This document shows, piece by piece, positions 2,764 to 7,502 of a stretch of DNA of 60,698 nucleotides. Source of the stretch: a virus. The notes below the pieces were generated by a model, which had not been told where the DNA came from, made no database searches, and saw only the letters and a program-made list of their open reading frames with translations. Location: positions 1 to 60,698 of IMG/VR virus record IMGVR_UViG_3300018481_000007; one strand, 5' to 3'. Both the position numbers and the translations under genes were made by a program. The first letter of the stretch is position 1. Each line of letters opens with the position of its first letter.

Positions 2764-3093
2764 GTGAAGGCCACGGCGATACCGCAGCGGTCCCGGGATC
2801 TCGTACGGTCCCGGGACCGTCACCGGTGTGCTAGGTGCGCGGTCCCGGCACCGACCGGGGAGTGGCACCACCGTCGGTCGCGTTCGGTGCGCGACAGCCA
2901 CACCCACTGTGCCTGCAACGGGGTGTGGTTGTGCAGTCCCTGTCACCGCTGGGCTCATGCCAATCCCGAGGCTGCCCGGGAGACCGGCTTCATCCTGGCG
3001 CGCAACTGCGACACCCCCTGGCTGATGCCGTTCAGACACCCGCTGGACTGGCGGGCACCCGACTGCCAGGGTGGGTGGAGTGGGTCAAGTTAG
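2764..3093 (+). CDS. HNH endonuclease-like protein
   Basis: The product has 109 residues from a GTG start. It carries the small-HNH signature: C22-x2-C25, then E33-W-H35-H36-R-R-S, then C57-x2-C60-H61 and HANPEAARETG. The two Cys pairs should hold a structural zinc, and the His residues fit the metal-dependent nuclease site. The gene sits at the head of the DNA-processing module (VRR-NUC, Rad52-like, Cas4-like). It may act in recombination, or like HNH partners of terminases, but the terminase genes are far away. Confidence 0.85.
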   Translation: MKATAIPQRSRDLVRSRDRHRCARCAVPAPTGEWHHRRSRSVRDSHTHCACNGVWLCSPCHRWAHANPEAARETGFILARNCDTPWLMPFRHPLDWRAPDCQGGWSGSS

Positions 3094-3688: not shown

Positions 3689-4291
3689 ATGCCACTGACC
3701 AACGCCCAGATCAAGCGTCTCCTCACCCCCGTCATCCCCTCCCGCGTCGAGCAGGTCCGGGGACAGTCCTACGTCCCGCAGTTCGAGGTGCGGGCCGAAC
3801 TGTCCCGGGTCTTCGGCTTCGGCAACTGGGACTCCTCCATCCACGACATGACCCTCATCTACGAGGAGCCGGAGGAGCGCGAGAACGGCAAGACCTACTG
3901 GAAGGTCTGCTACCGCTGCGCCTGCACCCTGACCATCCGCGACTACGACGGCAACGTCGTCTGCACTCAGACCGAGTGGCACGCCGAGGAGTCTGCACCG
4001 CAGCCCTCCCGTGGTGAAGCCCACGCCCTTGCCCTTACCTCGGTCGAGTCCTACGCCTTGCGCCGAGCCTGCATCAACCTCGGAGACACGTTCGGCCTGC
4101 ACCTGTACCGGAACGGCCAGTTGACCCCGCTGATCAAGGGGACGCTGCAGACCACCGACGACGAGAGCCCGCTCTACGACCCCCAGACCACCCCCACCCC
4201 GGTGCTGACCGAGGAGCAGAAGACCAACCTGGCGAACGCCCTGGGAGCGGTCGAGGTGCCTCAGGAGCCCGCTGAGAGCGTGCCAGCATGA
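3689..4291 (+). CDS. Rad52-like single-strand annealing protein
   Basis: The product has 200 residues. The N-terminal 130 residues follow the Rad52/Rad22 pattern of actinophage recombinases: a V-x-G-Q-S-Y-V-P-Q-F-E-V-R-AE-L-x-R-V-FGFGNWD segment, a strand-rich middle, then SYALRRACINLGDTFGLHLY. The protein should anneal complementary single strands in recombination and replication. The C-terminal 65 residues are a flexible linker rich in Pro, Thr and Glu. A consensus promoter ends 5 bases before its ATG. It is followed by an overlapping small gene and the Cas4-like exonuclease, a typical annealase-exonuclease pairing. Confidence 0.88.
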   Translation: MPLTNAQIKRLLTPVIPSRVEQVRGQSYVPQFEVRAELSRVFGFGNWDSSIHDMTLIYEEPEERENGKTYWKVCYRCACTLTIRDYDGNVVCTQTEWHAEESAPQPSRGEAHALALTSVESYALRRACINLGDTFGLHLYRNGQLTPLIKGTLQTTDDESPLYDPQTTPTPVLTEEQKTNLANALGAVEVPQEPAESVPA

Positions 4292-4563: not shown

Positions 4564-4724
4564 GCGACACCGCCGAGCCTCACTGGTGGCCCCGGGCAGT
4601 GTGCCCGGACTGCTCCCAAGGCAAGCACCAGGCCTGTGTCGGTAGCGCCTGGGACGATGACACCGACAGCCCAGCCGTGTGCCAGTGCTACGAGCACGAC
4701 CATGATCCGGAGTGGAGCGCGTAG
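4560..4724 (+). CDS. small zinc-ribbon protein
   Basis: The product has 54 residues from a GTG overlapping the upstream stop (GTGA). It ends in TAG, which overlaps the GTG of the exonuclease gene. Cys residues are arranged as C15-x2-C18, C26 and C41-x-C43, with several His (HDHDP), so a small metal-binding ribbon is likely. Tight coupling on both sides and the frame-filling fit support it as real. Confidence 0.65.
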   Translation: MSDTAEPHWWPRAVCPDCSQGKHQACVGSAWDDDTDSPAVCQCYEHDHDPEWSA

Positions 4725-5701
4725 TGGACCTACAGATGTTGTTGCAGGAGCCTCCTCGGCTGATGACGGCCGAGGAGCAGGCCATGTCGGACCAGTTCTA
4801 CGAGGCCGTGCAGTTGGCGACGAACCAGACAGCCCGTAGCATCCAAGCCTCTGGACACCGAGTGGGGGTCTCGGATCTGGGGCACTGCTCCGAGCGGGTG
4901 CGGCGGCACCTGCTCGGAGAACAGGAGCCCGCCACCGACAAGACCGCCGCCTTCATCGGCACCGCCCTCGGGGACCACATCGAGGCCGCGATGACCAGCC
5001 TCTACCCGAACCTGATCCGCCAGTCCGAGGTGACCATCACCCTCTACGGCGACACCGGCACCTACGTGCTGATGGGGCACCCGGACCTGGTCGAGCCCTC
5101 GGGGAAACTGATCGACGTCAAGACCGTCCGAGGGCTGGAGCGGGTGCGGCGCACCGGACCATCCCAGCAGCAGCAGTTCCAGCGGCACCTGTACGCGAAG
5201 GCCGCGCACTCGATGGGCCTGTTCGACGACGACGTGGCCCTCGCTGACGTCAAGGTCAGCAACATCTGGTTCGACCGAGGTGGAGACGACAAGATCCCCC
5301 ACGTCCACGAGGAGCCCTATGACGAGCGAGTCGTCGAAGCAGCCACCGCCTGGCTTGACGATGTGGTCTACGCCTACCAGCAGGGAGAGGAAGCCCGAAA
5401 GGAGCCTCCTATCCAGATGTGCGAGAAAGCCTGCGGGTTCTTCCTGGACTGTCGTGCGGGCCGTGGTGGTCCGCAGGGACTGATCGAGGACAGCGACCTG
5501 CTCGCCGCCGTGGCGATGCACCAGGAGGCCCTGGGGCTGGAGCGGACGGCCCGCCGGTTGAAGGACGAGGCCAAGGCTGCCCTGCAGGGTGTCGAGGGCT
5601 CCACGGGCCGGTTCACGGTCCGCTGGACCAAGGTCTCCGGTGGCCGGGTCGAGTACGACCGGGCCGCCTACATGAAACTCGACGTACGCCCCATCCGATG
5701 A
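4724..5701 (+). CDS. Cas4/RecB-like PD-(D/E)XK exonuclease
   Basis: The product has 325 residues from GTG 4724. Motifs in order are VSDLGHCSERVRRHLLGE with C55; GTALGDHIEA with H85 and E87; GHPDLVE with D121; KLIDVKTV with D131 and K133; QQQFQRHLYAKA; and C-terminal C233-x3-C237-x5-C243. This is the RecB nuclease fold with four cysteines placed to hold an Fe-S cluster, as in Cas4-type phage exonucleases. It should resect DNA ends for the Rad52-like annealase. No CRISPR array or other cas gene is present, so a CRISPR role is unlikely. Confidence 0.9.
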   Translation: MDLQMLLQEPPRLMTAEEQAMSDQFYEAVQLATNQTARSIQASGHRVGVSDLGHCSERVRRHLLGEQEPATDKTAAFIGTALGDHIEAAMTSLYPNLIRQSEVTITLYGDTGTYVLMGHPDLVEPSGKLIDVKTVRGLERVRRTGPSQQQQFQRHLYAKAAHSMGLFDDDVALADVKVSNIWFDRGGDDKIPHVHEEPYDERVVEAATAWLDDVVYAYQQGEEARKEPPIQMCEKACGFFLDCRAGRGGPQGLIEDSDLLAAVAMHQEALGLERTARRLKDEAKAALQGVEGSTGRFTVRWTKVSGGRVEYDRAAYMKLDVRPIR

Positions 5702-5889: not shown

Positions 5890-6002
5890 CCACCCCACCC
5901 GGTCCCGGCTGGGTCGCTACGGCTGCCCAGCATGACTCGTGCGGCCATGATGGCGCCCTCTCTGGCGGCGCTGGCCGGGTGGGGTCTACCGTCCCGGCAT
6001 GA
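5886..6002 (+). CDS. very small hypothetical protein
   Basis: The product has 38 residues from a GTG overlapping the upstream stop, and its own stop overlaps the next ATG. The coupling is regular, but the sequence is Gly- and Ala-rich and unremarkable. It could be a translational relay rather than a functional protein. Confidence 0.4.
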   Translation: MTTPPGPGWVATAAQHDSCGHDGALSGGAGRVGSTVPA

Positions 6003-6316
6003 GCAACCATCACGTTCACTACGCGGGCCTGGACCCTCACCTCCAGGCCCGCTGCTCGTGTGCCAAGAGGTCAGCCATCGGGACTCGCTCCGAGGTCGAC
6101 GACTGGTTCCGCGAGCACGTCCACGAGGTCCAGCGGATCAGGGCCCACCTGGGGTCACGGAACCCCTCGTTGAAGACCCAGTACGCCTGGTTCGTGAAGC
6201 AGGCCGAGGACACCGACAACGATCCCGACGACCGCGCCCTCTGGCGACAGTTGGCCGAGGAGATGGAGCGGTTCCTGGCATCCAAGGAACCGCTCCAGCA
6301 GGACGCCCTGTTCTAG
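5999..6316 (+). CDS. hypothetical protein
   Basis: The product has 105 residues. It begins MSNHHVHYAGLDPHLQARCSCA and is otherwise helical, with a charged middle (DDRALWRQLAEEMERFLASK). It is the last gene of the left arm. Its stop overlaps the stop of the convergent Acb2-like gene. Confidence 0.75.
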   Translation: MSNHHVHYAGLDPHLQARCSCAKRSAIGTRSEVDDWFREHVHEVQRIRAHLGSRNPSLKTQYAWFVKQAEDTDNDPDDRALWRQLAEEMERFLASKEPLQQDALF

Positions 6317-6507
6317 AGGTCGAGCCCCGCGCGCACCGCCGCGTCCTTGGACTCCAACAGTTTTCTGAGCGCCACCGTGGTCTCCGGCCCCGACGGCAGG
6401 GTGCTCTCGATGTGCTTCGCCAGGTCGTGGTACGGCTTGGAGATCGCCTGCAACTTCTCCGGCAGGTGGTCGTAGGCGAAGTAGCGCAGCAGTGGTGAGT
6501 GGTTCAT
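6313..6507 (-). CDS. Acb2/Tad1-hairpin-like protein (anti-CBASS sponge candidate)
   Basis: The product has 64 residues. The sequence MNHSPLLRYFAYDHLPEKLQ, then a helix leading to SGPETTVALRKLLESKDAAVRA, fits the two-helix hairpin family of phage Acb2. Its features are the RYFAY motif near the N-terminus, a ...LA..I...LP.GPE.T.ALRKLLE.KDA..RA core and a length near 65. Acb2 proteins bind cyclic di- and trinucleotides and block CBASS, and some related proteins also sequester Thoeris signals. Family membership is from pattern memory. Binding is inferred. It has a CGGAGCACC ribosome-binding site. Operator 2 lies 58 bases upstream. Confidence 0.75.
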   Translation of the reverse strand: MNHSPLLRYFAYDHLPEKLQAISKPYHDLAKHIESTLPSGPETTVALRKLLESKDAAVRAGLDL

Positions 6508-6564
6508 GGTGCTCCGTTCTAAGTACCTTCTATGTGCCGATCACTTCGCCGGCCCCCAACTGAC

Positions 6565-6577
6565 TTAGACGACCTAA
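6565..6577. promoter_or_regulatory. TTAGN5CTAA operator site 2 (TTAGACGACCTAA)
   Basis: This site lies between the last tail-fibre gene (stop at 6579) and the Acb2-like gene, just after the fibre stop codon on the transcribed strand. Confidence 0.8.
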
Positions 6578-6578
6578 C

Positions 6579-7502
6579 TCAGTAGAGGATCGCCTGGACC
6601 GTGCCGGACACCGGAGTCCCTGCCATCACCGTGCCGTCGGTCAGTCGGTAGGCGGTACCCACGATCTTGTTGCTGACAGCGTTGACCATCGCCTTCCACG
6701 GGGAGGACCCGTGCTCGGTGAACTGAGCGGCGAGCACTCCTGACCGACCGGCCAACTCGGGGGTGCCGAGGATGTCGAAGGCCCCGAAGGCGTCGGTGGT
6801 CATGGTGAGTTGGAAGACCATCACCGTCGGCTGCAGACCATCGGACCACGGCCCCGACAGTTCGAGCATCGCATCGACGGCCTCCCAGCCGGTCTGGTTG
6901 GGCAGCAGCGACCAGACCGCGCCGGTCCAGTACCAGATGATCCCGGGCTCGGTGTCGAGGATCGTCAACTGGTTCAGCCCAGGTGTGGGCAGGGCTGCGG
7001 TGCGGGCCGCTGCGTCAACGAAGTGCTGGGTGACCGAGACCATGCCCTGGTCGGTCAGCCCGACGCCGGTGGCGAAAGTGCCGACCAGCCGGTTGGGCTC
7101 CGGCAGCAGACCCAGTGGCAGCCCGGCCGAGCCGTCCCCGGTCAGCGAGGTGTCGTGCAGCACCGCACCCGCCGGAGCCACGGTGGCCGCCTGAGCGACC
7201 CAGGCACTCAGCGCCGAGTCCCAGGCCAGCACCTGCCCGTTGACCGGGTTCGCCGCCTGCACGTCGGGGAAGTCATCCAGTTCGGCGGTCGAGGTGAAGG
7301 ACACCACCGGCGAGTAGGGGTCAGCCGTGGAGCCATCCCCGGTGACCAGCGTGGTGAAGGTCTTGTTCTGGCTGGACGTGAAGGCAATGTCCACGTCGAT
7401 GATCAACGGGTCCGACGGCGTGCCCGAGCCGGAGACGTCCGCCGCCCCGTGTCCGATGATCTGGCAGGCGCAGGTGCTCCCGCCGCAGCAACCCTTGGCC
7501 AT
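6579..7502 (-). CDS. tail fibre / receptor-binding candidate with Cys-rich N-terminus
   Basis: The product has 307 residues. The N-terminus (MAKGCCGGSTCACQIIGHGA, then a short turn and GSGTPSDPLIIDVDI) shares its Cys-x-Cys pattern and following strand motif with the two plus-strand fibres at 33356 and 34500. The middle has W-x-G-A-VW and LAWDSALSAWV repeats, as in phage tip proteins. The C-terminus is beta-rich. It lies downstream of the collar protein in the tail operon, so it is probably a virion tip or adhesion protein. Confidence 0.7.
   Translation of the reverse strand: MAKGCCGGSTCACQIIGHGAADVSGSGTPSDPLIIDVDIAFTSSQNKTFTTLVTGDGSTADPYSPVVSFTSTAELDDFPDVQAANPVNGQVLAWDSALSAWVAQAATVAPAGAVLHDTSLTGDGSAGLPLGLLPEPNRLVGTFATGVGLTDQGMVSVTQHFVDAAARTAALPTPGLNQLTILDTEPGIIWYWTGAVWSLLPNQTGWEAVDAMLELSGPWSDGLQPTVMVFQLTMTTDAFGAFDILGTPELAGRSGVLAAQFTEHGSSPWKAMVNAVSNKIVGTAYRLTDGTVMAGTPVSGTVQAILY

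Follow-up and report, generated by a model that had tools for sequence, protein, structure and literature searches.

A large, unnamed phage protein family as a probable remote relative of the Acb2/Tad1 hairpin and a putative nucleotide sponge

The gene under study lies in an IMG/VR virus record of 60,698 nucleotides (IMGVR_UViG_3300018481_000007). The whole of this stretch is called the window below. It has 67% GC and carries terminase, portal, tape-measure and tail genes. The terminase is closest to those of Curtobacterium and Arthrobacter phages (45–47%), and the window is from an actinobacterial phage. No near DNA match to its first 25 kb was found in the phage collection. A phage recombination pair is present in this part of the window. 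Briefly, a Rad52/22-family annealase gene (3689–4291, plus strand; PF04098, E = 6e-13) sits just upstream of a gene for a RecE-like exonuclease (4712–5701, plus strand; PHROG 35747, E = 2e-43), with small ORFs between.

The protein of interest, P0001, has 64 residues and is encoded on the minus strand at positions 6313–6507. Its translation is MNHSPLLRYFAYDHLPEKLQAISKPYHDLAKHIESTLPSGPETTVALRKLLESKDAAVRAGLDL. Residues 8–12 are RYFAY and residues 40–60 read GPE-TTV-ALRKLLE-S-KDA-AV-RA; both motifs named in the original prediction are thus exact. A Shine-Dalgarno sequence, GGAG (6512–6515, minus strand), is placed 4 nt 5' of the ATG. The gene had been described as sitting alone. This holds only in part, since tail genes precede it on the same strand, 71 bp away, and its 3' end overlaps, by 4 bp, a convergent ORF of 105 codons (5999–6316, plus strand). 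The upstream neighbour (6579–7502, minus strand) encodes a 307-residue protein of the tail region, downstream of a tail-collar protein. Neither a sigma-70 promoter nor a convincing terminator was found beside the P0001 gene.

Two syntenic relatives, with the same tail-gene neighbours, were used for comparison. These are L001 and L002, the latter a metagenomic relative of the window phage. Amino acid identity to P0001 is 83% in L001 and 81% in L002; for the 307-residue neighbour the values are 54% and 71%, respectively. The convergent ORF is conserved in L002 (56%). Compared by eye with the upstream sequence of L001, the 5' leader of P0001 (6508–6551, minus strand) is well conserved. For P0001 against L001, dN is 0.12 and dS is 1.09; against L002, dN is 0.14 and dS is 0.52. 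The plus-strand frame opposite P0001 is broken by stops in both relatives. By tblastn, relatives were detected in 335 phage records, with coverage of 80% or more in 314. Because of this spread, the low dN relative to dS, the broken opposite frame and the Shine-Dalgarno sequence, P0001 is not a chance ORF. We conclude that it is a real gene under purifying selection.

Between the stop codon of the tail gene and the start of P0001 is a palindromic, operator-like site, TTAGACGACCTAA (6565–6577). This is a copy of TTAGN5CTAA, which occurs 31 times exactly in the window against 0.02 copies expected. The operator that had been predicted upstream of P0001 is therefore borne out as a real repeated site and a putative operator. 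The sites span positions 3090 to 59760 and include those at 6565, 9713, 12573, 15813, 42979, 43201, 47069 and 48782; the extended form of the palindrome is CTTAGGCAACCTAAG. In the late half, spacing is approximately 3 kb and some copies fall within ORFs (9713, 26664). The sites are dense at 41–60 kb, where many lie 17–30 bp 5' of a Shine-Dalgarno sequence and start codon. This layout recalls the stoperators or start-associated sequences of mycobacteriophages. L002 has three copies in 8.2 kb, at 833, 3977 and 6964. One occupies the same junction between the tail gene and the P0001 homologue, 11 bp 5' of the start codon. At that junction L001 has a different palindrome, CTCAGGGCCCTGAG.

P0001 matches PHROG 1761 (E = 2e-28), PHROG 5120 (E = 2e-19) and PHROG 1454 (E = 0.008). 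The first two are listed in PHROGs as of unknown function. The PHROG 1761 profile differs in its greater length (148 positions), with P0001 aligned to the C-terminal part only. The tblastn relatives come mainly from phages of Vibrio, Erwinia, Acinetobacter, Brevibacterium, Gordonia and Mycobacterium, mostly at 45–65% identity, and 167 of 180 candidate viral-contig stretches contain a relative. We aligned 63 members of the family (alignment A1). Fourteen columns are invariant: F10, H14, L15, A30, E42, L47, R48, K49, L51, E52, K54, D55, A57 and R59. The near-invariant signature R48-K-L-L-E-S-K-D-A-A-V-R59 is encoded at positions 6331–6366 (minus strand).

Two sister branches have the same signature and can be aligned with P0001 over their full length. 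These are the Mycobacterium phage Nigel gp67 type (RKLLEAKDCFVR) and the Dickeya phage JA13_104 type (DSAEKSAGLRKLLEAKDCxVR), the latter also a Foldseek match. Both differ from P0001 in having mostly Cys for Ala56 and Gly for Ala46, and the Nigel type has an RHP-like N-terminal start. The Nigel type (LRKLLEAKDCFVR; viral-contig loci L214–L293) was found in at least 518 viral stretches. It is larger than the P0001 family, and the members seen were annotated as hypothetical only.

Some family members have a Cys-rich, zinc-ribbon-like N-terminal extension. Examples are L083:765-1133(+), relatives in L080 and L024, and the 'anti-TRAP' protein of Ochrobactrum phage OH. Published annotations such as 'occludin homology', 'anti-TRAP' and 'endopeptidase Rz', found under the family matches, either seem spurious or concern the extra N-terminal parts. 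We also searched bacterial genomes. Among 297 genomes from the bacterial class of a Nocardioides genome, the family profile matched nine, including the seed genome, and the Pfam model for the Acb2/Tad1 hairpin (PF24729, Acb2_Tad1_hairpin) matched two. Among 274 genomes from the Marinomonas class the numbers were one (the seed) and five, respectively. No P0001-family gene was seen together with canonical acb2 in 40 family records, nor any clear family member in 41 viral contigs chosen for canonical acb2; base rates are low and the records may be fragments.

P0001 had been predicted to be an Acb2/Tad1-hairpin protein. At the level of superfamily and fold this is upheld by the comparisons described below; a match to PF24729 is missing. 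With P0001 as the query there was no match to PF24729 (cut-off 27 bits) even at E = 10, and none in Pfam, NCBIfam or PADLOC. The model works, as T4 Vs.4 and eight proteins from actinophages and a Paenibacillus phage match it with E from 5e-16 to 2e-27. Among the 63 relatives of P0001, five match it weakly, with a best E of 0.024. Searching PDB sequences with P0001 and with the A1 profile returned neither Acb2 nor Tad1, and chance matches only.

A profile-profile comparison of A1 with 46 canonical Acb2 sequences gave P = 5.5e-6 over residues 19–53. This value applies to one chosen pair; had a complete family library been searched blind, it would count as no more than borderline. With the two sister branches added to the family the score against canonical Acb2 was 35.0, whereas 200 column shuffles gave 19.2 or less and a reversed profile gave 8.4. 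An earlier comparison using 8 canonical sequences had been weak (probability 30), and deeper alignments improved the result. In reciprocal hmmsearch runs between the family and Acb2, E values went down to 1.6e-4 at Z = 10000, and no reversed decoy was better than 35. PHROG 1454 forms a bridge: P0001 matches it at 0.008, T4 Vs.4 at 7e-4 and canonical members of PF24729 at 1e-28 to 1e-37. Two canonical Acb2 members match PHROG 1761 back (0.006–0.008) in a compatible register. Finally, we asked where A1 matches fall in the 41 contigs chosen for canonical acb2. All nine matches with E of 0.001 or less were inside the acb2 gene, several of the contigs being close relatives, so that the nine are not independent. 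Taken from these alignments, P0001 is very probably a remote homologue of the Acb2 hairpin.

The predicted fold points the same way. An AF2 model of P0001, built from the family alignment, has a pLDDT of 94.5 and helices at residues 5–10, 17–36 and 41–62. The control, a canonical actinophage Acb2, has helices at 3–8, 17–40 and 45–68. Hence, in the models, the layout of the P0001 protomer is the same as that of canonical Acb2. The published Acb2 protomer has this layout too, with a short helix at the N-terminus and two long ones that run antiparallel (PMC10419184). The original prediction was staked on a profile match and on the helical hairpin; the match proved absent for Pfam, and no different fold emerged. 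In a Foldseek search of viral models (BFVD), the family itself was followed by many proteins named 'Acb2/Tad1 hairpin domain-containing'. The best named match outside the family was of this kind, with probability 0.99 and an E value of only 0.07–0.16. Against the PDB, the P0001 model did not find Acb2. This negative is weak for small hairpins because a true Acb2 model reaches Vs.4 only at E = 1.3. Short helical hairpins make fold comparison weak in general, and with the non-significant PDB result for true Acb2 this leaves some room for convergence of two small hairpins with no common origin. We consider convergence very improbable. Shuffled and reversed controls score far lower than the real profiles, and the profile matches in the 41 acb2-bearing contigs fall on acb2 only. 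Furthermore, helicity alone cannot explain a gapless match that spans helix 1, AL-x-KL-x-E and the LP-x-G-x-E turn between them, together with a shared F-x-[YF]-x-H.

Next, residues of the ligand pocket were compared in a joint alignment. F10 and H14 of P0001 are common to canonical actinophage Acb2, within a shared F-x-[FY]-H motif (F10-A-Y12-D-H14-L-P16; positions 6460–6480, minus strand). P38, E42, K49, L50, E52 and A/S53 are also common to canonical Acb2. Y12, at the place of the stacking aromatic, aligns with Y8 of T4 Acb2 and Y11 of PaMx33 p26, and the column is Tyr or Phe in 68–91% of each branch. T4 Acb2 mutated at Y8 no longer binds cyclic dinucleotides (PMC12657218). At R59, the T4-type proteins also have a conserved Arg. 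F10, Y12, H14 and R59, like the homology and fold, favour the view that P0001 is a straightforward Acb2, with the same pockets, that binds the cyclic di- and trinucleotides of CBASS.

Other positions argue against that view, which we regard as unlikely. K26 is reportedly important in PaMx33 Acb2. The equivalent of this residue, R27 in canonical Acb2, is S23 in P0001 and Ser in 79–91% of each branch, a pairing that depends on where the alignment gap is placed, with less certainty than in the stretch aligned without gaps. The canonical T-K-L-E-E-A-M-F-W-A-N-A is replaced by R-K-L-L-E-S-K-D-A-A-V-R in P0001, with Trp and Asn absent; more generally, D-[AC]-x-V-R takes the place of canonical [FM]-W-A-N-A. 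The missing Pfam match also counts against a straightforward Acb2. The motif of RYFAY and ALRKLLE-x-KDA-x-x-RA that had been called typical of Acb2/Tad1 proteins is not. At the place of its helix part canonical actinophage Acb2 reads T-K-L-E-E-A-M-F-W-A-N-A-A-I-A-R, and the motif in P0001 is instead the signature of the sister family. As aligned, the end of helix 2 has gained a near-invariant charged stripe of R48, E52, D55 and R59, with K49 and K54. The first four would fall on one face of the helix (i, i+4, i+7, i+11). These changes suggest a rebuilt pocket or subunit interface. Given S23 and the new charged stripe, we would expect a ligand partly unlike the preferred cyclic nucleotides of Acb2.

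An anti-defence protein might be expected to vary more than this signature does, and P0001 could have a different role. P0001 would then be an Acb2-derived hairpin that does not bind immune nucleotides and has some other conserved phage function, for instance with a housekeeping nucleotide, with a host protein or as an oligomeric adaptor. The 14 invariant columns in 63 sequences, from phages of Actinobacteria and Proteobacteria alike, are consistent with this, as are the PHROG labels of unknown function, frequent placement in late, structural or lysis regions and the Cys-rich N-terminal extensions of some members. Set against this, canonical Acb2 is equally conserved, having 13 invariant columns in 46 sequences. 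Gene neighbourhoods of the family vary, from capsid or head genes, the tail-lysin interval and the position after the holin to DNA-metabolism genes and sites near the genome end. Such varied placement would fit an accessory gene better than one for a structural component. In particular, positions ranging from after the capsid gene or the holin to the early region argue against a fixed structural role. We consider another function somewhat unlikely, though a little less so than a straightforward Acb2.

The best explanation of our data is that P0001 is an accessory phage protein of the late region and a member of an unnamed large family (PHROG 1761/5120 and the sister branches), a remote homologue of the Acb2/Tad1 hairpin and a putative sponge of a partly different ligand. 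We put the probability of this reading at roughly 60%. Acb2 forms a compact homohexamer that has three sites for dinucleotides and two for trinucleotides. P0001 would oligomerise, bind a ligand partly unlike the cyclic nucleotides of Acb2 and act as a sponge. Most likely it is a small, oligomeric sponge for nucleotides whose specificity has changed, and that it sequesters some immune nucleotide is rather probable. More tentatively, the family may be a phage-wide sister of Acb2, missed by current Pfam and NCBIfam models, in which a remodelled pocket (S23; R48, K49, E52, K54, D55, R59) on the same hairpin serves to sequester an immune nucleotide outside the known ligands of Acb2. We offer this fuller proposal as a possibility that is more doubtful than the sponge itself.

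If P0001 is a sponge, a counter-defence gene overlooked by standard annotation is present in hundreds of phages, where its product is labelled 'hypothetical protein'. The Acb2 group would extend widely among phages of Actinobacteria and Proteobacteria, and its scaffold would be known with a second type of pocket. The strict and different signature would predict a ligand, testable with one purified 64-residue protein.

The closest known system is Acb2 (anti-CBASS 2; PF24729), represented by T4 Vs.4, PaMx33 p26 and actinophage proteins of PHROG 1454. P0001 resembles it in size, in the arrangement of one short and two long antiparallel helices, in F-x-[YF]-H and in scattered occurrence among phages. 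Helix 1, the turn and the first half of helix 2 can be aligned between the two (P of about 5e-6). P0001 differs in missing PF24729, in having Ser at the K26/R27 equivalent and in the second half of helix 2, where RKLLE-x-KD-x-x-VR stands against TKLEEAMFWANAAIAR in Acb2. Tad1 (Thoeris anti-defence 1) is related in that its C-terminal helices have the hairpin of Acb2; for Tad1 chains, the canonical profile gives E of about 0.001. Unlike Tad1, P0001 is predicted by AF2 to be all helical, has 64 residues with no N-terminal beta-sheet domain and has no direct sequence match to Tad1. Published sponges of the Acb2/Tad1 kind bind CBASS cyclic nucleotides, and Tad1 also binds gcADPR (PMC12043709). Acb2 can also trigger Panoptes defence (PMC12657218). 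Acb2 has been reported in 239 tailed phages (PMC12043709), and the P0001 family is found in more phage records than this.
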